From Diprion similis (Eukaryota; Arthropoda; Insecta; Hymenoptera; Diprionidae), in assembly GCF_021155765.1 (NCBI RefSeq), contig NC_060115.1, positions 5,870,493 to 5,934,492 of the forward strand: 64,000 nucleotides of DNA, written 5' to 3'. A model generated the notes under the pieces. The model saw only the letters and a list, made by a program, of their open reading frames with translations, ran no database searches and was not told where the DNA came from. Both the position numbers and the translations under genes were made by a program. This document shows, one piece after another, positions 6,512-64,000 of the stretch; within the stretch, counting starts at the first letter, position 1, and every line of letters starts with the position of its first letter.

Positions 6512-9500
6512 ATGATGATCGGACCGTCGTCGGGAACGAGTGGCGGGATGCCAAATCGAGAGACAACCGAATCGTCGGTTGTGAGAGCCAAAAGAAAGTT
6601 CTTCGACGATTTGGACCTGGATCATTTTTGCGACGACAGCTGCCAAAGCTGTAATAAACGTTATCATTTAACCGAACTGTCTTCGAACGGCATTCAGGGT
6701 ATTTACGGGGGTTCTTCGTCGACAATTTCAAGCGAAAAATCAGTATCCCCGTCCGTAACATACGTGCCGAACGCAGGTATCTCACCGATGTCGTCAGAAG
6801 AAATTTCTAGCTCCGGTTCGATGGCGAGACTTGAGGTTTTGGTGGTCGACGGTAACTGGGACGAATCGAGTATGAGCACAAACTTGACAAGTTTGTCCAG
6901 CCACCATTCAAACGTTATAAATTCGTCCGTTCTCTCCGACATCCAATCACTGCAGGATAATTACGGGACGATGCCTAATTGGAACACGGTGAACGCACCA
7001 AGTGCGAACAACGTTAATCAGACGCCCGAAGTATTCGTACCCCAGAATATGCAGCCTGCCGAGGATCAGGAAAATGGGAATTTGTCCTGGCTACTGGATT
7101 TTAAACTCGACTCACTGATCGAGGTACCAGAAGAAAAATTATCGGATCTTGGCTCGCGAGAGAATGAAAATGGTAATTTTTTAACAAAGTGATATCCTGA
7201 CCTATTTTTTTTTTTTTTGATTGTCTTTTTGTTTTTGTGTTTCTTTATATTTGTATTCGTTATTGTAATCAGTCGGTCGCTTAGAATTTTTGTCCTCCAT
7301 AACGGTCACTCAAAGTGTGGAATGTTTGGCTCTTCACAGAAGTAAAACACATTGAAGCAAAAAATAATTTCTCGCTAAATTTGTTTATTAAGATATTGCA
7401 AAAGGTGAATGATACACACCGCAGCGACATATTATAGTCAATCGAGACCACGGTGTGATCCATCCAGCAGCTTTTCTATCAGAAAAGATCGAGGGGAACT
7501 ACGAAGCATTTTGCATTACCACGGAAGGACTTCAAATCTTATTTCAGTCTTTTCATTTGAAAATAAATTCGCGCGCGTGGAGAAGTGCATAACATGTATA
7601 TTACTGCTTTGATAATCACCGTTAAGATATTTAATCCGCACATGTACCGATGAGCCCCGAACGAAATGTATGAAACGATAATAAACATCAACGTTGCAAT
7701 AAAAACCCGCTCAAAAATTGACGAGAAAAATTCTGTACTCTTTGAAAAATCGCGTGCAGGTGTGTCGAACGTCTGCAGCAATAGATTTACGGCGAACAAG
7801 ATGAGCACCGGATCGCCGTCGTCGTCGGGTTCGGTGTCTAGCTTCGTGCACGAGATCAGAAGACCCTACACTCACGCCGGGCTTTCCTCCGGGTCCGGAA
7901 ATTTGCACGGACATGTACAAAATGAAACAAAATCATCGTCGCCCAACAATTACAACGCGGTAAATGAAGCTCGAAATTTGGGAACGGGTCGTTATGGTGG
8001 TCCGAAGAAACCGCCTTTTACCTACACCGAACTGATAGAGCACGCATTACAAGAACGGGGAGAACTGACGGTCTCTGCGATCTATCAATGGATTTCGTAA
8101 GTGTACCATACATTGTTAGTGTTGTTGTTGTTATTATTATTATTATTACTAGTAGTCTGCTAATTTGTGTTTTATGTTGATACTCGAGCGCTACTATGTA
8201 ATATGCGCAGCATTGAATCGGATAAAATGTGAACAATAGACTGGTAATATCCTCCTAATGATGATACATATCATCATATCTTGAAAACCGACAATTATTA
8301 AGCTTTTACGCTGTTGTGAATCACAGATTATGAGACATCTGTAAGAACACAAAACTGGTGTGAGAGTAAATAACAAGATCGATATTGTAATTTTCATTTC
8401 ACATCTATGCTATATTTTATTAATATATTTGAAGGAAAGAGACTTGGACGAATATAATATATAATACAGCATATATGTGATAATATAACGTGACAATATT
8501 TTTTATCCGCTTTACACTCAAAACATTATCACGTGAATTATGTGTTTTTTTTTGTTTTTTTTTCGTTTCTATCATTACATGTGTCGTTTTTATTTTACAC
8601 TAAATGTCGCATAGCTTTAGCTATCTTCTACGAGAAAACGATTTGTTCGCTGGCACGGTGCAGTTACGCGATCGAGGGGCAAGCATCACGGCTCGGTTAG
8701 TCGAGGATGGTACTACTTGGTACCGGTACTACTACCACCACTGTGCACCCCTTTAACCCGAAGGCTTGGTACCACCTGGTACAAGTAAATCCCACCCTGG
8801 TCCCCTTCTCATCCCTTAGTCGAGCTTGGATTTGTTCGATCCACCTCGAGCATTCGAAAGTTACGATTTGCGCATTTTCCTCCGCGACTCCTTACGACGG
8901 TATAAGAGTTGTACTTGAAAAACAAACACATATAAAGAGGGTTGTGTCAGGTGAATGATGAATTCAAATTTTCAAGTAACAATCTCAAATTACATTGTGC
9001 AAAATCTGGGCTTCGTTTGCCAGTGGATGGAATCGAATATGGCACCCTGTTAAAGATTTTGGCTCGCCAAGTCCAGATTTCGATTAGGAATTTAATTTTA
9101 TACTAGCTATATGAGATATTTACAAAACACGATATCAGCACGAATAAATAAGTAAAGCTTTTTTCAAACGACGCGAATTTACATACGTGTTTAATCTTAA
9201 CACAAGGCGTAATATTGAAACCCCAATAAACGGAAACCGATGAACTCTTTCGATTATATTAGTTTTAATGCAAAATCAAGATCTCGGATTGGGGAGTTTG
9301 TTTAAGTCAACAGGAGATCGTGGATGCTGGAGAAGTAACAAGGCTCGAGGTTACGGGATAGATTGTCATCTCGATTGGCAATATAACGAAAGCCAAAAGG
9401 TTGTAGATACATGACAGGAGGTGCTCGGGGTAGCTGATAACGTTTAAAAATCGAGTTTATCAGCCTTTCGAACGATTATTTCTCTATCTTGTATGCGACA

Positions 9501-11492
9501 GATGGCTTGGATCACCTGCCCTCGATAATTGATTACCGTTTTCAAATATATTGCCGCAATGAGTATACACGACAGGATAAACTACAAACCACCGATAGAT
9601 GAGCCTGTAACATCTATATACATAGTTACACATACCTGCGCAATATCAGTGAGGTATGTATGTGTAACTAAAAAAAACTACACATACGTATAAAAGATCA
9701 AAGTATAGATACACAACGAATCAATTTATTCGAAGAATTGTTAAAAAACTTCATTTTTATCGTTGGACATCACTGAAGTTTAAAAGAAAATACTGACCAT
9801 TGATGTTATGTACGATTCGCCCGCGTGAAAAGCACGTGCATCGACACGCGACAATAAGAGGGCCCACAACAAAGATCCATATTAGTAATTGCCGAACGCG
9901 TAACCGACCGTGACGTCCCGGTACGAGATCAAGCAGGTGTAGGACAGGTAAAGGAAATTACATTCAGAATCGGCTACGCGCGGTACAAGGGTGATTTTCC
10001 GAACGATTAAAGTGGGGACCAGGGACCAGCGACCAAAGGGGGTGCTAGCGTGTGCCTGTCGCTTCGAAAGACCCTTCTGCGCGGTTTGACGCCCCTAAAA
10101 AATCCCGAGGAAAGGAACTTGTGAAAGAATCCTTGAAAGGTTCGACGAACTCGGTCGCTGATTCATGCTGGATCCAATGAAGTTATGCTTTTTCCAATGC
10201 AATACGATTTCGAATTCGAAATGAATATTACAATTTTCTGTAACAGGTTTTTCTGTATTAAATGTGTTGATTTTAGTTTCTAATCTCTTATTTTTTGTTT
10301 CAGAGAACATTTCCCTTACTACAAAAGCAACGATGATCGTTGGAAGAATTCTGTGCGGCACAATTTATCGATAAATCCTCATTTCCGTAAAGGGTCGAAA
10401 GCACCTCACGGAGCCGGCCACCTCTGGGCAATAGCTAATCGAGGAGAGACAAGACCTCGACAAATAACACCGACGAGTGGCGGTACTTTGACGCGGCAAT
10501 TCGTAGCGAAAAACGAGCAAGACAATAGTTATCGAAAAAGCAGCAATAATTTACGGTAAGTGTTGTTGAACGGAGTTTGATGTGAAAAATGAATTGAAGA
10601 AAATGGTCGTAAGATTTTGAAAAAATTTTCTATCATTGAAGTGTTGAGAATTTTTATTGTTCGTATATCTTTAAAACACGATTGCAGGTCTCAGCTGATC
10701 AATCAGGTTGTTACAATGGACGAGATTGCGGCTGCGACAGCAAGTATTCAGCAACCCGAAGAAACTAGCGAAGTAATTAACACTGTCACTCTGGAGCATT
10801 GCGCTGAGCAAATACTTAGCGGGATAAAAAGGGAAGTTGAGGTGCAATACCTTGTGCCTATGGTTATACCGAATAACGGGGAACACAATCCTATTCAACA
10901 AAATCAGCAGAATGGTCAATTGGAGCAACACTATCACCTCAAAGAAACAGGTAAATAGAAGAAGGAACCATTTAAACAAACTAAGTAGCGATATCCAAAA
11001 GTTATTATAAAAATATAAGTTTCTAGAAAAGAAGTACGAATCCCTTCCACTGTATACCTCAAATATTGTCTTTCCTCAGACTTTTTAAACCCGGTATCGA
11101 AAGAAGTGGTGGCAGAAGAGTGTGGGCTAATTGGCGAGGGTTATCTGGTAACGGACTTGAATCCAACAACTCTAGGGCTGAATATGGTGGAATCAGAAAC
11201 CATTACGCCAGAGAATCTTTTCGGTGAAGAACTGAGCTTCCAGTTTTACGAATTAACATCGCCGTCACAGCTGCAGTCAGCCTGACACACAGAGAAGGGA
11301 AAAATCCGTATAATTTTTCTGGAAGAATCGTGGATCCAGGACGTTCAAATGGTGGATAACTTTGATACTGGTTTGTCCTTGAAACAAGGGGATCTCTCGG
11401 TAACTCCAAATTCTGAACTCAAGGATTTAACTGCCTGCACAGACATAGCGGATAATCAAAACACAATGTGCATTTTAAACAATAAGAGCTGA
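6512..11492 (+). CDS. Divergent forkhead-box transcription factor
   Basis: Exons 6512-7172, 7760-8096, 10304-10555, 10688-10950 and 11080 onward. The ATG at 6512 is the first after an in-frame TAA at 6488. Read straight through, exon 5 stops at TGA 11283-11285 (572 residues). If a 69-nt intron-like segment (11224-11292) is removed, the frame continues to TGA 11490-11492 (618 residues). Residues ~303-377 form a forkhead winged helix: KKPPFTYTELIEHAL, the recognition-helix segment WKNSVRHNLSINPHF, and GAGHLWAIANRG, split by the 2.2-kb intron 2. The N-terminus is Ser-rich, with an NLSWLLDFKLDSL motif near residue 190. WKNSVRHNLS recalls FoxN, but the wing (FRKGSKAPHGAGHLW) fits no standard class I can name, so the subclass stays open. 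Nuclear DNA binding is expected. Confidence 0.88.
8097..10303 (+). other. Forkhead intron 2 (2.2 kb)
   Basis: Begins GTAAGT and ends TTTCAG, interrupting the forkhead domain within the helix 2 coding region. It holds a 48-bp hairpin (9623-9670) and otherwise no recognisable gene. Large introns in developmental regulators often carry enhancers, but nothing here proves that. Confidence 0.7.
9623..9670. repeat. Imperfect hairpin in forkhead intron 2
   Basis: Arm TAGTTACACATACCT (9623-9637) pairs with the reverse complement of 9652-9670, which has an extra four-base ACAT unit; the loop is about 14 nt. It could be a small MITE relic or a structured RNA element; there is no evidence for a microRNA. 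Confidence 0.5.
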
Positions 11493-11787
11493 TCGTCAAG
11501 TATCCTCAATTCACTTTACTTTACCTCTGGCGCAAACAACGGTCTGTTATTTATTTAAATATTTAATATCATAGCTGATTTGTAAAGTATGTTAATCAGC
11601 TTATTTCCATTCTCATTCGTAGCCAAACCAATGCGTCGTACAGTGCCTGGATGTGTCTTGAAACATAATTTATTATTAAATATTACTATGATGGTTTCTC
11701 CTAGTCCCTACAAAAAACTGTGTGTAATGTTTTTGTATTAGCAAAGGAAATATAATATAACATTTACAATTTCGCAGATGCTTCAAA

Positions 11788-11793
11788 TTTATT
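11788..11793 (-). terminator. Poly(A) signal for mL64 (minus strand)
   Basis: TTTATT on the + strand reads AATAAA on the minus strand, about 80 bp beyond the mL64 stop codon. The short 11493-11871 spacer lies between two convergent genes and holds only their 3' UTRs. Confidence 0.5.
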
Positions 11794-11871
11794 AAATACA
11801 AACTCCTGTTACCGCATTTCTTGTCAGTCTACGTATTGACTTTCATTGATTTCTGTACAACATTTCAGGAA

Positions 11872-12789
11872 TCATTCAGCATCTTTATCAACTTCACTAT
11901 CTTGACTCTTATTTCCTTTCGTTTTCTCCTGATTTGATTTAGCGATCTTGGCCAACAATTTCTGTTGTCTGGCTTCTTTTTTAGCTAACTTCTGCTGTTT
12001 TTTATCCGCTTTGTCCTTCTGAGCAAGCACCTCCTTGAATCTCGCATCATTGGGATTTATTTTGAAGCCAAAATGCCGTCTGACCTCTTCTATCAGGCGT
12101 TCCTTTCTCTCCCTGGCTGCCAACATCTCCGCTTCTTTCTTAGCTACTTTGGCATTCAGGTCCGCGATCCATTTATCAAGTTTCTTTAGATTTTGACCTA
12201 CAGCTTCATCCCTATGTCATGAAAATAAAAAAAGTAATTCTGATAACAACATGCAGCTTTCAGGTACAAAATTTTCATTATCGATTGCATTCATAACCAA
12301 AGTGCATTACCTGGCTCTGATACTTTCTGCCAATTCAATATTCTTCTTGGCAATCTTATCCCACATATCATGAATTGTTTCTGGATATAAGAGTGATTCA
12401 TATTCCTTCCTATCTGCAACTTCGTCCTTCGTCGGCCAGGCGATTCCAATAGGTACATCACTAGCCTCCATACCATACCTTCCAACCATTCTTCGCTTAT
12501 ATCTAACTGAGGTGTGAAAAGATTGTATTTCATCATATTCAGGACGCTTGTCAAACAAGATGTTTCTGTGCGAAGCATTAAGCCTGGACTTGTTTCGCTT
12601 CTGCTCAATTTCTTCCTCGGTCAAACCTGGGGTGCCTTTGGGTACTAAGTAGAATTGCTCATTCAGTGTTTCAATATCAAGATCATCTTTCTTCGACACT
12701 TCCTCGGCCTTTGTTGCAGCGAATCTTCTTGAAAAAACTCTTGGTAGCAGGGAAACGACGTTCCCGTTACGAGATAACATCACGTTCAT
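11872..12789 (-). CDS. GADD45GIP1: Mitochondrial ribosomal protein mL64 (CRIF1/GADD45GIP1)
   Basis: Two minus-strand exons, 12789-12311 and 12211-11872, give 272 residues. The N-terminus (MNVMLSRNGNVVSLLPRVFS, then RRFAATKAEE) looks like a mitochondrial presequence. The body contains SRLNASHRN, the conserved RRMVGRYGMEASDVPIGIAWPT region with a Tyr/Gly-rich turn, YPETIHDMWDKI, and a long charged helix rich in Lys/Glu/Gln predicted to be coiled coil. This is the layout of CRIF1, a subunit of the mitoribosome large subunit near the exit tunnel; the vertebrate protein also supports membrane insertion of OXPHOS proteins. It is head-to-head with the MOV10-family gene, only 262 bp apart. Confidence 0.9.
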
Positions 12790-13051
12790 TTTTCACCGTC
12801 TCTCAACACGGCGACGTCGTAACTTTCACAAGGATTCTAACCTAAGTATCTAACCTCAAAAAAGCAGGTTATGACACCAACAGCAGATCTTCAATGGCAA
12901 GTGTTGATAATCAGTTCACTGTTATTCTCGTATCATGGAGATTGAGATATTTCATGTTTTCATAGATATTTGTTATACTGTCTAGTTTGATATTAACTAT
13001 TAATTTATTATCAAGAGCATCAAGTTTTGATTTTCTACGATTCTGTAGACA
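12790..13051. promoter_or_regulatory. Compact bidirectional promoter mL64 / MOV10-like
   Basis: Only 262 bp separate the two divergent ATGs (12789 minus, 13052 plus), so transcription start sites and 5' UTRs of both must lie here if exon 1a of the helicase is used. The sequence is AT-rich without an obvious TATA box. Confidence 0.5.
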
Positions 13052-24270: not shown

Positions 24271-25562
24271 TTAACCTTTATTATTTGCATTATCAATCAT
24301 ACTACAAGGTATAAGCACTAATTTTGGAATCATACCAGGTGGAGCTATGAATTGTTGGGTATTTTGAGTCGAAGTTTGTCCGGAGTACTTTACTTCAGCT
24401 TCGGTAACAAGCTTACAAATTTCCATCTTTATATCAGCTTGAGCTTTGGCAGGTAATTTTTTCACAGTCTCTGCCATACTATCAAAGAAAAGTTCAATGC
24501 TACTTTTGCCCTCTGGGGCCAAATACACCTGATCAATATTAGTCTCTGTCAATTTTATGTCATTAGCATTTTTAGTCGGACTAACAGGAGTAGGCAGCAC
24601 TGTTGAATTTCTCAAAAAAATAGGTCCAGTAGTTGAACCATTAGCACTTGTTGACGGTATGATTAAATTTCCAGTATTTTGATTAGAATTTTTTAGAATA
24701 CTATAGGTGTTAGATACATCCACTGTAGGTTGGTGTTCGTATTTAGCTCTCTTCGGTCTTATTTTCCTAAATTTCGACTCTATCTGTTGGATGGGGGTGG
24801 TTACAATAACTTGCTGCATTTCGTTACTATTTGCAATTTGTTGGAACGAATTACTATCTTCCAGCATTTCGATCTTTTGATCCTCACTCTCATCCAATAT
24901 AGGATCTGCAGTCGTTTCTTCTAAGACTTCTAAATATTCCGTAAAATCATCGTCAGTTCTATCCTCTAATTGCTCCAAAAGTCCTTCTGTATTATTATCC
25001 CCAGCATTTATATCCTGTATATACTCCTCGGAAAGTTCAACACATTGCGGTTGATAATCTGATTCATAACTACCAAAATAGGAGAAAATTTATTGACCAA
25101 ATTGTAAATAAAATTTTGGTAATAATGAAATCGCAAATGAAAGAAATAGGTTATATTATCTTACGGAAATTTGAGAAAACTTAAATGGTCCTCAAATACC
25201 CATTTTTTCCGTCTGATTCCTTTGTCAGTCTTGTTTTTGTACTTTAATATGCGGCAGTAAGTATCCCTCAAGTTTTTCCACCGAAGTCGAACCCAGCCAG
25301 CTAAAAAGTTCAACCAGGATGTGAAATTCGCAGCGTAATTTCATCGTTGTAATAAAGAATGTGTCTCAATGATTGAATTAATCTTACGATCCAGGCCTAG
25401 TTCCAGCGCTATTCGTTTCCAAACTTTCTGTCTAAATTCTTGTAACTTAATTGCGCCACCTTTGACTTCAGAAATATAAAGAACAGGATGTTGTTCTATT
25501 GCCTCAATTATTTTGAGGGATATTTTGTGAGCGTCTGGGGGCATCGAGGGCATGGTCAACAT
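24271..25562 (-). CDS. MADF-BESS domain transcription factor
   Basis: Three minus-strand exons, 25562-25388, 25300-25165 and 25069-24271, join in frame to 369 residues. The N-terminal ~100 residues form a MADF (Myb/SANT-like) DNA-binding domain: IIEAIEQHPVLYISEVKGG, FRQKVWKRIALELGLDPGWV, RLRWKNLRDTYCRILKYKNK, KKWVFEDHLSFLKF. After an acidic and Asn/Thr-rich linker comes a BESS motif near residues 294-335 (SSIELFFDSMAETVKKLPAK, then ADIKMEICKLVTEAE). MADF-BESS proteins are expanded in insects, bind DNA through MADF and oligomerise or contact partners through BESS. No individual ortholog is recognised. Confidence 0.88.
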
Positions 25563-57628: not shown

Positions 57629-60299
57629 TGAATTTTTATACAGATCATGTCACTAATTGGTAAGGGGTTGTTACAAGGGTTGTCTGAGTTTGGAAATTGT
57701 TTTAACCACGCCGTGGTTGTTGTATAACTTGAATGATAATTCGAACAATATGGGATTGACAAGGCAATTGATCGACGTATGGTTTCGAAAAACAAGCTCG
57801 ATGAACGTCAGACATGTGTAAAAATGAAATAAAAATATGTGAGTTAGAATAAATTTCGTAATTTAATTGATTCGGACATTTTTGACTCAACCGGACTTCG
57901 TTCCGTAGGATTTACAAGAGAATTCGGTGAAACGAGTATAACGCGTCGAGGTTGGCTAAACTTAATTTCCGCTCAATTTAACCGGGCGTAAAAATCGTCC
58001 GAGATCTTTGTCCGGTGAACGTAACGTTTATAGAATGAATAATAAAGGATCGTTGCAGGTGTAACGGAAAAGGTACTTGATAATTTAGACAACTATAAGT
58101 AAATTAGTCTGAAGAATATATAAGCTGTTTTACACTGCATCTAATTGTGAATAATTATATCACGTGATCACTGCCCACGTTTCTCGATTATACCAAGAAA
58201 ACACCTATAGTCGTTTGCAAGTGCCGTGAGAGACGGATATGAATTTAAATGTGAGAAGTCTGGGTTCAGATTAGATCTAAGCATTTAGATATAACGTATT
58301 TGTGTTACTTGTATACGTATACATACATAAATTTATGTATAACAAAGGTTTGCAAATTTGTGCAATTCTTGATGATATTCAGATAAAATCGCATAAAAAC
58401 AGGATCGAAAATAACGATTTAATAAAAGAGAAAAGATGTGCAGGCGATGGTATGACGGAATTCTGTAACGAGTGTATCGAAATCGAGAGCATGCATTTAT
58501 CGCTGAATGCTCATTTGAGTCCAAGAGCGTGAAAACGATATTCGAAAGGACGAGGTAATCTCAATCCAGTAAAACGCCTCTGGCGCAAAACAAGTGTAAT
58601 AGAACAATCAAGTATAAAAGAACGAGAACATAGAGCCTATAACTATACACGATGTACTTTTTGCCGAGAGACAATTTATGGTTTCTTTTCGTAATCGGAA
58701 GACGAATTAGATTCACACTTCCGTATCTGACAATCGTAATTGATAACACAAGGCTTCGTCAAGTGAGAATGATTTTTTTATTCTACGTTGAAAAAATTCA
58801 CGTATTAAATTTAAGCGTTCGTCAAAATTTTATAACGCAGATATGTTTAATTTTCCTAATCACATGCGTCTACATAGCGGTAAAAGAATCGATGATGCTT
58901 AAACATCCGTAGTAAATTATCATTATCAGAATTAATTAATTAATTACGTTGATATATAGAGGAGCACGTTGCGTCGCTTTGCGACCCGCAGGCAGTGTCC
59001 GACCGTCGAGTAATTTACGATTATACACGGTGAATATAACGCGATTATACCTTTTCTTTTTTTTTTTACTTTTACCGTCGATGCAACATACGCGCGTATA
59101 TCAAGACGGATTTTATGTAATATACTTTTATTAAAAGGGAACAAGTTGTTTACACCATACATATATATGTAAGTATATATCCGCCAGTTTAGCTTGTCTT
59201 GAATAAACATTTGTAATCTGTCGGTGAACAGTTAGAATCTGGAATTTATCCGCGAACCAGTAATGACGATAACAACGTTAGCAATACACAAGAAAATATA
59301 TTGTACATAGATAAAAATTTGCGTTTTATTTCGCGAGTTCAAAGTAGCGACTTATCCCCGAAGGAATCGACTAATGTGTGTGTGTTTTATATGCTCTCAC
59401 ACCCTTCGCGGCAATGAAGTAATTTTCAAAGCAATCATCGATTCAATATATCTCCTCTCTCTCCCTTCGTCCCTCCAACGACGCTCGAAAGAAAGTATCA
59501 CCCACAGAGAGGTTAATTGATTCTCAATTTTGGTTGTCTCGTAACCAATCCCACGATCAAACGAAAAAAGTGTCAGGTTTTTCGGTATTTGTAGTATATA
59601 AAATGTAAAAAACCAAAAATTTTATTCGAGGTAAATCGATAGCCTTGAATCGGAAATATCTACTTCATAAAAAAAAACTGCACCATCCACTGTGCACTAA
59701 GGGAATAACAATAGCGATGAACGGGCGGGAAAAGCGTGTCATACAGTACTTTGAAGCAAATTCTGCAACTTCTTGAAACCTGAAATCGGTATTCGCACGT
59801 ATTTACATGCATGCATATACATACGATACAATAAAATACACTCGGTGCGAGGAAGACGCGTATTACGCGCATTAAAGTAACGATAAAAGAGTCGAAAAGC
59901 GAGCGCCGGTGCAAAGCACACACACCGTGTACGTATGTACATCGCGCAGCAGGCGGGCAGCTGCAGCGCACGACGACGGCGACGTCGACGACGACGACAC
60001 TCTGCAGAGTACGATATTCCGTTGAGCCGGGTCTCCCCCCTTCTCGCCTCGTCCCTCGGTCTGTCTCTTTCTCTCGCTGGCGTATCGCGGCGGTTAACAG
60101 CGTTGCCAGATATAGGGTTCGACTATCCTTGTCCCCCGAGTCTCGTCGCTCGTCGCTGCCTCCCCCCCCCCGCCCCTGCGCCGGTGTCGCCGGTCCGTCG
60201 GCCTTAGCGAGCGTAAAGTTACTTCTTTCGCTCTTTTAACGACTCGTTTCTCCTCCCGTTTCTCCCCGCGGATAGAGAGCGAGTCTCTAACGAACTTAC

Positions 60300-60340
60300 G
60301 TATCGCGTTACTTAAAACCGATGCTGCCTCGCAGACGATG
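60300..60340 (-). other. Possible untranslated 5' exon of Bap170
   Basis: On the minus strand, TTATCCTTTCAG precedes a 41-nt segment that ends in GTAAGTTCG. Both splice sites are good, and it lies in a GC-rich island upstream of the known exons. It does not encode ARID residues, so a non-coding 5' exon is the best reading; no transcript evidence. Confidence 0.25.
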
Positions 60341-62040
60341 CTGAAAGGATAAAGCAAAGGTGAACGACGCGAGTGAGACTCTCCGGAGTACTTGGGTGCC
60401 TCGGAATCATAAGGATCTTCCGCACGACGTACAAAACCATTTATCTACCATGTACCGTTCGGATCGGTGAGGAGGGGGCCGCAGAATCACCGAGTATGGT
60501 ACTCTCGCGAAAAGCGTCTCTTAACTTCCGCGATAAAATATCAATCATTCGTCCGTTATTCCGTGCGAGCACCTCGATGCGAAGACTCGAAAATACATTC
60601 GCTTTGAAACACCAGAGGTTTCTTTTTGCTCCTCCTTTAAATTTGGTTCGATTGCAAGCTACAATGGTCGCCGTTGCGTCTTCTCCTCCAAAGCAAGAAG
60701 AGAGATCTGGACCAATAAGAGAATAAAAGAGAAGAAAGGAGACCGAGAGACTATAACGCTGGCCGATCTGACCGCCGCGCGTGTTGCTCTTCGAGTCTGG
60801 AGGCGAGGCTTCGAATCTTCGATGTTGGTGCCAAGCCGCTACCGTCGCGTCGGTGGCTATCGAGGCTCGGCTCTGGCTTCTTTGCTCCGTTCGCCGCCGA
60901 GTTCGCTCCCCGAGAAACCGCGCCGACGGCGGTGTTGCCGGGTCGGAATCTTCGCCTCGGCCTCGGCTCACTTCACGCGCGCTACTTGCTCGAGTAGTCG
61001 AGCAGCGCTGCGCGTCGCCCGGTATGCGACGCCGGGGCGCGGCGTTGCCGTATCGACCGCTGCCCGCCTGCCCGCCTACCGGCGGGGCGACCCCCGCCAC
61101 GAAACGTCGCCTCCTCGCTACCCGTTCGATCTTTCCTTCGTTCCGTTCCTCGCTGTGTGTGCCTCCGATCCTCGCTTTAACGACCGACAAACCGCGTGTC
61201 TAGGGATACGAGCCGAACCCGCATGCCTGTGCGTACACGTACCTAACTAACTACCTATACCCACAGCTTTAGCAGCCTTGCATTTCTCTCCCTTTCTCTC
61301 CGTGCGATTCGTACATTTTATTTCCGGAATAATGATAATAGAGTGTGTTTCTCGCTTTTTTACGTTTGTGATTCTGCAGAATGATTATCATTCTTATTAC
61401 CACTCACTATCTCACTCACTCTCAGAAAAAGATGGGTACATAATATGCGGTTGAGTGGCGAGAAGATGAACAAAAAGGTCGAACCACCCGGTCCGTCGGC
61501 GGTCGTTGTGCGAGGGGACCAACTTCCATAACACGGAATTATAATATATACGTTATAGTATCGGGACAGAAAGAAGTCGTAAAATTCGCATCAGTTATTT
61601 GCGCCGAGACGAATAAGAGAGGGTGAATTTTTTGCACGAGTTTAGACCAGATTATTATTCTGCTTACTGCAACGGAACACGTTTAAGGTGAAATGAACTG
61701 AGGAGAAAAAAAAATACGAATCGACGAAAAATCGAGCCAAGTCGTGCATAAAAAAAAAAAAAAAAAAAAAAAAATAGATCCACGGGAAAGTGAGTACCTA
61801 CTTCCTTTCCTCGGTTACCAACAAGAGAAGGAGACTAGGCGCCGCGACTGGCGCACACACTTGTTGACGGTTAAAGCCTTCGGCTACCGTCGGCCACCGT
61901 CTACTCCTCTACATCCCTTCCTCTTCTTCACCTCCGCTGATCTATTCCCCCCACCCTGCGACCGCGCAATGCGACCCTGACCTTGCGCCACTTCCGCGTT
62001 ATCCTTACGTTAATAAGTTTTTAGTAGGTCTGCTCCTGCC

Positions 62041-62071
62041 TCTCCTCCTCCTCCTCCTCCTCCTCCTCCTC
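62041..62071. repeat. (CTC)n trinucleotide repeat
   Basis: About ten CTC units; encodes Glu runs in spurious minus-strand frames. Confidence 0.9.
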
Positions 62072-62860
62072 CAACAGCCCGCAATCGGCAATCCCGGAAA
62101 TGGAAACAACGTGGAGAATAATAATTATCGTGTATTTCGCACAGGAAGCTTGCTTCTTGTAACAGTGTTCTTGGCACGGTACAGGATACAAGAAATTCGT
62201 CACACGTGTGGGCAGTTAATCGCTGCACACGGTCGGTGATGCTTTCCGTTAATTTAACGAGAAAAGCTGGATGGCCGCTGCTAGTGATTCGAAACACATA
62301 CGTGCATAAACAATATGCATTTTCCCCAGCAGCTGGAAGGCTTCAGTTTATCCGCTGGATTTCTCCCATGCAACGTTTACGACGTAATAATCACGTGTGT
62401 AGGCACGTATGTTCGCGCGTTACGCGGTGACTGTGACAGCAACAAGAGAGAGTCGATCGTGCTACCCGTGCAGCAGCAGCCCCTTTGATTTCTTTGGTAG
62501 AATAAAAAGAGAAAGACACGCTAATCAGCGTGCGTGAGGCTGCTGTCTTCTTTGCACATCCGTCGGTAAAGAAGAGTATCTAGTTAGGTGTACTCGTGAG
62601 GCACGCGTGTACGACACCGTCGACACAGGGTTAGTAACCCCCGGAGGGAAGGGAAGGGGATTTGCCGTCTATCAGTTCCGTGAGCGTTGCTTATCCTCCG
62701 TTAATTTCGTTCTATACCCATTTATCGTGTTTCACCGCGTGGCCTCTCATTCCCTCTTCTTCCTCCTCCTCTTCCTCCTTCTCCTCTTAATGGCACCTTT
62801 CGCCGAGTGTCAGCTCGCCACGCGACCAGGCGCCGAATATCGATGGTATAAGGGAAGGGG

Positions 62861-62890
62861 AGACGAAGAGAGACGAAGAGAGACGAAGAG
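62861..62890. repeat. Decamer tandem repeat (AGACGAAGAG)3
   Basis: Three perfect tandem copies in a purine-rich stretch. Confidence 0.9.
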
Positions 62891-63071
62891 AGTCCGATAC
62901 TGACTATCCGTGTGTCGTAGTATTACGTCAGGAAGGCTGCTGGCCGGCCGGCGGACGGCATTCGACGACCGAGTGCTGACTGCATGTCGCATCGGGACAC
63001 CAGAGGCGACGGTGGTTGCGCGGAGGTTCCGATTGACGCGCGAAGATTCGCGGCACTCGCCACGCGGACCT

Positions 63072-63118
63072 GGTCCTCTCCTCTCCTCTCCTCTCTTCTC
63101 CTCTCCTCTCCTCTCCTC
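63072..63118. repeat. (CTCTC/TCCTC)n pyrimidine repeat
   Basis: About nine pentamer units with one variant; a polypyrimidine tract with mirror-like character. Confidence 0.9.
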
Positions 63119-64000
63119 GCCGCTCCGCCCCGCGCCGGAAGCAGCGCGGCAAGTTCAAGGAACCGTCGTGCACTTCGAGGGCGGGGGAGGGGGAGGCGAA
63201 AGGTGATGTATATACGCATGTATCGGGAAGTCCCACCGCGACACGATAATGAGCGAGAATTTTATGTTTTTACAAGTGTGCGGCGAGTCAACGACGGACC
63301 GTCGGATATGCTTGTGCGGAGGTAGTTTTCGTTTCAAGGGTTTGTTGCTCTGATAATATTTTAAAATATGAAAAATAATTATATACCATATAAGTACCTA
63401 TAGAAAGGGTGTAGTTGCAACTTTTCACCCCGAAGACAATACGTAAATAAATAAATGTGCGTATTCTAATATACTGTGTGGAAATGTTAAACGATAGATT
63501 GTCCGTAACCCGATTTTTTATAAAAGTCCATTCTCGTCCGGCTGAGGATTTTATTGTACTCACATGGCGCATATTCTCTTGTATAATATAGACGTAGTCG
63601 TTGCTGCGGTTCGTTATACGAACTGAAACTGGCAGGAAGTACGACCGGGTCGTCGCATATGCTCGACTCGGGAAGAAAGTGTTTCCGATCGTATGATGAT
63701 TGTTATCCAAGGAATAATTATTTTCTTTTTTCTTCATCTTTCTTGCAGTACAACGTTACAAGAAATCCATCGTAGTCCTTCGTCGTCGCAATTACGATAA
63801 TTGAAAGAAACAAATTTCCAATAATTTATAACCGTTTTCTTTTTTTATAATACCTTTGGGGATAATCGTCGGTTTGCTCGTTTTAGTCCTCACGCGACGC
63901 TTTTTAAACTCGGAGCAATTTCCCCTGCCTCGTTTTCAGGCGCGCATCATCCGCTCGTTTGTTTACATACTTTACTTTTCTCCCGCACGAGGTTCTCTCC

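Follow-up and report, generated by a model that had tools for sequence, protein, structure and literature searches.

A forkhead gene of the hymenopteran Diprion similis (genome size, 269 Mb) raises the question of how the sequence downstream of its first stop codon should be understood. The gene is encoded on the plus strand of a stretch of 64,000 nucleotides, hereafter the window; its reading frame meets a TGA at 11283-11285 and, as the preliminary description had stated and as can be read directly from the sequence, the same frame then stays open for 68 codons, up to a second TGA at 11490. That description proposed two readings: either a facultative intron of 69 nt removes the first stop, or the TGA is read through.

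Stop codon readthrough has been inferred for hundreds of genes of flies, mosquitoes and bumblebees. In the bumblebee study, 851 candidates were reported, of which at least 306 were inferred to be functional (PMC7826183). The readthrough genes recognized by conservation favour TGA and a following C (PMC5100048; PMC7826183); this context is favoured, not required, and UGA represents just 25% of the events reported from ribosome profiling in the fly (PMC3840789). The Drosophila transcription factor Vvl/Dfr is a proven case of functional readthrough, in which the readthrough tail raises activity and matters for development (PMC8417969). In known readthrough regions, coding scores obtained from a single species are described as lying between those of coding and non-coding sequence (PMC5100048).

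In this work the gene model, the first stop codon, the 68-codon extension and the putative 69-nt intron were compared with other genes and with non-coding sequence of the same genome. We propose that stop codon readthrough at the TGA at 11283 is the best explanation of the locus, a view that we hold with slightly more confidence than doubt.

Results

The forkhead gene and its neighbourhood

Five exons join in phase to encode 572 residues up to the first stop, and the joined domain matches the Pfam family PF00250 (E 1.1e-26, 93.2 bits). The coding part of exon 1 (6512..7172) is an open frame that begins with the ATG at 6512 and is followed by the donor GTAATT at 7173, with a phase that fits exon 2. 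The first half of the forkhead domain is encoded in the open frame of exon 2 (7760..8096), and the second half in exon 3 (10304..10555). Exon 4 (10688..10950) ends at a strong donor, CAG/GTAAAT, at 10951, and the terminal exon (11080..11285 up to the first stop) is preceded by the acceptor CTTTCCTCAG, which scores 7.03. A home-made HMM recovers the last three exons at their exact boundaries and ends the gene at 11285; the seed of this HMM included pieces of exons of the forkhead gene. It also places an additional exon at 9559-9653. Exons 1 and 2 are not predicted by the HMM, which calls a weak minus-strand gene in their region (6703-8113, score 33). The junction of exons 1 and 2 is the least certain of the model, because intron 1 has an acceptor (7759) that scores -0.85. 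An earlier version of the HMM, whose introns had become very short (5th percentile, 28 nt), was replaced.

Among the 4-kb blocks of the window, 60001-64000 stands out with a GC content of 0.505, the rest having 0.335-0.410. In this block, and onward from about 43600, the GC-rich predictions of the HMM seem unreliable, as does its GC-rich gene class (class 0) in general.

We take the forkhead domain of this gene to be similar to those of the FoxT group (fd3F, Crg-1), an assignment that may serve as a lead. Genes fd3F and Crg-1 of Drosophila are included among the FoxT forkhead genes (PMC8918179). Literature searches for FoxT forkhead genes in Hymenoptera returned nothing related, and neither the forkhead-domain peptide nor two FoxT/Crg-1 phrases gave a match. 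A search of the genome of D. similis for the C-terminal part of the gene found one copy and no second one. In collections of contigs that hold no animals, the terminal exon had no match among the prokaryote genomes and the forkhead domain had none among the viral or prokaryote contigs. Across the genome there are at least 22 Pfam forkhead matches, counted exon by exon.

Downstream, a convergent gene of two exons on the minus strand (11872-12792) belongs to the CR6_interact family (GADD45GIP1, PF10147). Its stop lies 379 bases from the second stop of the forkhead gene and, given this distance, the 3' ends of the two genes may overlap.

The first stop and the open frame that follows it

Read in codons from 11082, the terminal exon runs into the first stop, and the next base is C; the sequence at 11283..11286 is thus TGA-C, a leaky-type stop context. 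The extension occupies 11286..11489 and is closed by a TGA-T at 11490..11492; the product of readthrough would have 641 residues (572 + 1 + 68). In the gene class of ordinary composition TGA-C is found at 1 of 49 stops, which is the forkhead stop itself; over all predicted genes it is found at 8 of 92, and it accounts for 6.1% of stop triplets at large. In view of the counts for predicted genes, the context adds moderate weight to readthrough.

A frame that is open for 68 codons was observed in 1,280 of 35,518 non-coding windows of matched GC (3.6%), and at least 68 open codons follow 3 of the 92 predicted stops, the forkhead stop included. The open frame by itself is therefore mildly unusual; it is the combination of openness with a codon-like content that is unusual. 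A comparable run follows another predicted gene, on the minus strand at 24271-25553, whose stop, TAA-G, precedes 68 open codons with a codon score of 0.109; possibly the end of this gene was mis-predicted or an intron was missed.

Codon content of the extension

Codon usage was evaluated with a model that contrasts the true frame of each training gene with its shifted frames. Nine Pfam-confirmed genes (2,777 codons) of the same genome served for training, with the forkhead gene left out. The training set was drawn from 41 predictions of the ordinary class, some of them short fragments; ten were given to Pfam, eight matched at 1e-4, and these eight were joined by one gene that had been confirmed by Pfam earlier. 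A first codon model (GC-rich forkhead frames) gave most exons of the forkhead gene scores of 0 or less and the extension -0.25, and was dropped.

The extension scores 0.132; ranked against 67 coding windows, it lies at the 57th percentile. Of the 35,518 GC-matched non-coding windows 1.0% do as well, a share that is 1.5% among the 1,280 open ones, and none of 47 in-frame windows located 3' of other predicted stops does. The two halves of the extension score 0.137 and 0.128, and the 68 triplets beyond the second stop -0.006. Summed along the frame, the score climbs from 7.1 at the first stop to its maximum, 18.0, at 11462; by the second stop it stands at 16.1, and it stays level 3' of that point. 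With a wider training set the extension scores 0.145; 184 of 18,294 windows, and 12 of 751 open ones, score at least this much, and the other five frames of the extension are negative. In the HMM, whose log-odds include base composition and whose training included exons of the forkhead gene, the extension obtains +10.5 nats, as compared with -18.5 for the 204 bases that follow the second stop. The earlier remark that the extension looks like real protein agrees with its codon content, which is coding-like as far as about the second stop. Support from amino-acid content alone is weaker than that from the codon score: among 32,388 windows with stops the extension ranks in the top 3.3%, and its level is reached by 14% of the 2,229 windows that are open, a set that includes real coding sequence.

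Single-genome codon scores are noisy. More than 0.08 is scored by 5% of the non-coding windows, and resampling of the training genes moves the score of the extension between 0.074 and 0.174 (5-95%). In addition, the scores of exons 1-3 of the forkhead gene range from -0.08 to 0.06, and that of the last 20 codons before the TGA is -0.002 (0.085 with the wider model), so one high score for the extension is not proof of coding.

Given this noise, the extension could be an ordinary 3' UTR that is open and codon-like by luck. Another 2 of the 92 predicted stops have open runs this long, one of them with the score of 0.109 mentioned above, and for this reason chance is not negligible. The case was also chosen by scanning 64 kb, and searches with the extension gave no Pfam family (E up to 1), no other copy in the genome and nothing in viral contigs. 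The joint requirement of length and codon content is much harder for luck to satisfy. Among 24,583 stop-to-stop runs of sequence not predicted to be coding, 5 have at least 68 codons and a mean score no lower than that of the extension; 22 further runs match or exceed its total score, so that 27 do so by total or mean. When the extension was shuffled with its dinucleotides preserved (n=20,000), 409 shuffles were open, 86 scored as high, and 1 did both. Its total score is the highest among the extensions of the 92 predicted stops. On this evidence we regard coincidence as unlikely, at roughly one chance in five.

A coding-like extension is also expected if the protein of 641 residues is ancestral and the stop at 11283 is recent, either as a nonsense change in the species or the individual or as an assembly error, in which case the extension would be a fresh relic. 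One base would suffice, the terminal exon (0.106) and the extension (0.132) have similar codon scores, and no credible intron separates them. Nevertheless, a C after the TGA would be less expected if the stop came from a random nonsense change than if it served readthrough, and insect readthrough genes are reported in the hundreds (PMC7826183). A recent stop gain therefore appears improbable to us.

The 69-nt GT-AG segment

The proposed intron was accurately described: the segment at 11224..11292 is 69 nt long, starts with GTGAAG after the first base of a GGT codon (phase 1), contains TTAAC at 11253-11257 and ends with ACACAG, and the alternative C-termini would give proteins of 572 (first stop) or 618 residues (segment removed). 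For comparison, we used introns inferred in 322 kb of the same genome; 46 of the 151 kept belong to the other, non-GC-rich class and have good flanking exons, intron 4 of the forkhead gene among them. Because the model that found these introns was consensus-weighted, the sample holds too few very weak true introns; GC content and body composition are less exposed than the site scores to this bias toward good sites.

Only 3 of the 46 introns have a donor, and 1 of the 46 an acceptor, with a score as low as that of the segment. The summed site score is -1.78 for the segment, and the lowest value among the 46 introns is 1.14. The GC content of the segment, 0.49, exceeds the maximum of 0.38 observed in the 24 introns shorter than 110 nt. 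In its body the segment is closer to the coding model than any of the 46 introns, with -0.081 bits per base versus a lowest value of -0.066 among them. In the four proposed introns of the forkhead gene the site sums are 2.24-13.76 and the body values 0.075-0.159. Pseudo-introns of this kind are common: a frame-preserving GT-AG pair, 55-120 nt apart, that spans the stop and opens at least 20 codons was found across 17 of 47 other predicted stops, in 9 of the 47 with a site sum at least equal to that of the segment (18 and 10 of 48 if the forkhead gene is kept in). The poor site sum, the high GC content, the coding-like body and these 9 pseudo-introns of equal or better sites make a facultative intron unlikely, and we judge that the segment is probably not one; this half of the preliminary description is not sustained.

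The stop could also be skipped if the donor at 10951 were joined to an acceptor at 11292 or at 11325, either of which would preserve the frame. This donor, which belongs to intron 4, scores 6.73, and 69 nt is within the sizes of the inferred introns (5th percentile, 69). The two acceptors, however, are weak (-2.41 at 11292 and -0.26 at 11325), and the HMM, in which introns are allowed, ended the gene at the first stop. Considering these routes together with the 69-nt intron, alternative splicing seems decidedly improbable.

The least probable explanation, very remote in our judgement, is that UGA is decoded as selenocysteine or that the mRNA is edited to a sense codon: the stop is indeed a TGA, but no SECIS-type Rfam match was obtained at 11000-12000 with E up to 5, and the honeybee and Nasonia are reported to have lost selenoproteins (PMC2500217).

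Features associated with readthrough

The motif CARYYA, placed after the stop, is associated with readthrough; the CACACA that follows the first stop does not fit it. RNA structure after the stop did not exceed that of shuffled sequences (z from -0.17 to 0.70 in 5 windows, from one sequence), and CAGCAGCA was absent from 250 nt 5' of the first stop through the second stop. Both are optional features, present in a minority of the known cases: RNA structure is reported for 9-10% and CAGCAGCA for 23% of the readthrough candidates (PMC5100048).

Discussion

A coding-like sequence after the TGA, with no credible intron, leaves three choices: readthrough, a recent gain of the stop, or coincidence. 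The weights that we give to readthrough and to its rivals are a matter of judgement. Of the two readings in the preliminary description, readthrough is the one that stands, on the TGA-C context and the coding-like extension. With the open frame, the TGA-C, the coding-like codon content and the poor fit to an intron as its observed basis, the proposal extends to the occurrence and rate of readthrough and to the function of the tail, which we infer from sequence.

Because the stop is of the leaky type and 68 protein-like codons come after it, ribosomes may sometimes pass it. Most ribosomes would terminate at the TGA at 11283 and yield the protein of 572 residues, and at the weak TGA-C a fraction of them would incorporate an amino acid through near-cognate decoding. 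These ribosomes would continue for 68 codons to the TGA at 11490 and produce an isoform of 641 residues, in which the acidic tail might provide the forkhead transcription factor with an additional activation segment. This role is suggested by the acidic character of the tail, which has a net charge of -5, and by a stretch in its first half that is rich in acidic and bulky hydrophobic residues. A matching acidic-hydrophobic 25-mer is present in 5 of 235 windows of 68 residues from other predicted proteins, and the stretch was sought post hoc, so it is weak support for an activation function.

The forkhead gene shares with the insect readthrough genes of Drosophila, Anopheles and Bombus the TGA-C, an open and protein-like second frame, and the lack of a credible intron; the difference is that those genes rest on alignments of many genomes or on ribosome footprints, whereas the forkhead case rests on one genome. 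Vvl/Dfr, a POU protein, is likewise a transcription factor, and in the forkhead protein a C-terminal extension would also come by readthrough. However, Vvl/Dfr has a UAG-C stop, a predicted stem loop and an extension of 286 residues, whereas the forkhead gene has UGA-C, 68 residues and no unusual structure; that the tail has the same effect in both would be an argument by analogy. In the main text of a paper on fd3F (PMC3414849), a word search found neither "readthrough" nor "stop codon", and in another forkhead-gene paper (PMC8365472) readthrough is mentioned as a caveat about a mutant.

A more speculative possibility, to which we give a low probability, is that readthrough acts as a switch in a FoxT-type (fd3F-like) factor, in which the decoding of UGA-C would depend on the cell type and the acidic tail of 68 residues would alter the strength with which the target genes are activated, by analogy with Vvl/Dfr in flies.

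If readthrough does occur at this stop, the forkhead gene of D. similis would be one more member of the large set of insect readthrough genes, and the understanding of readthrough would be unchanged.
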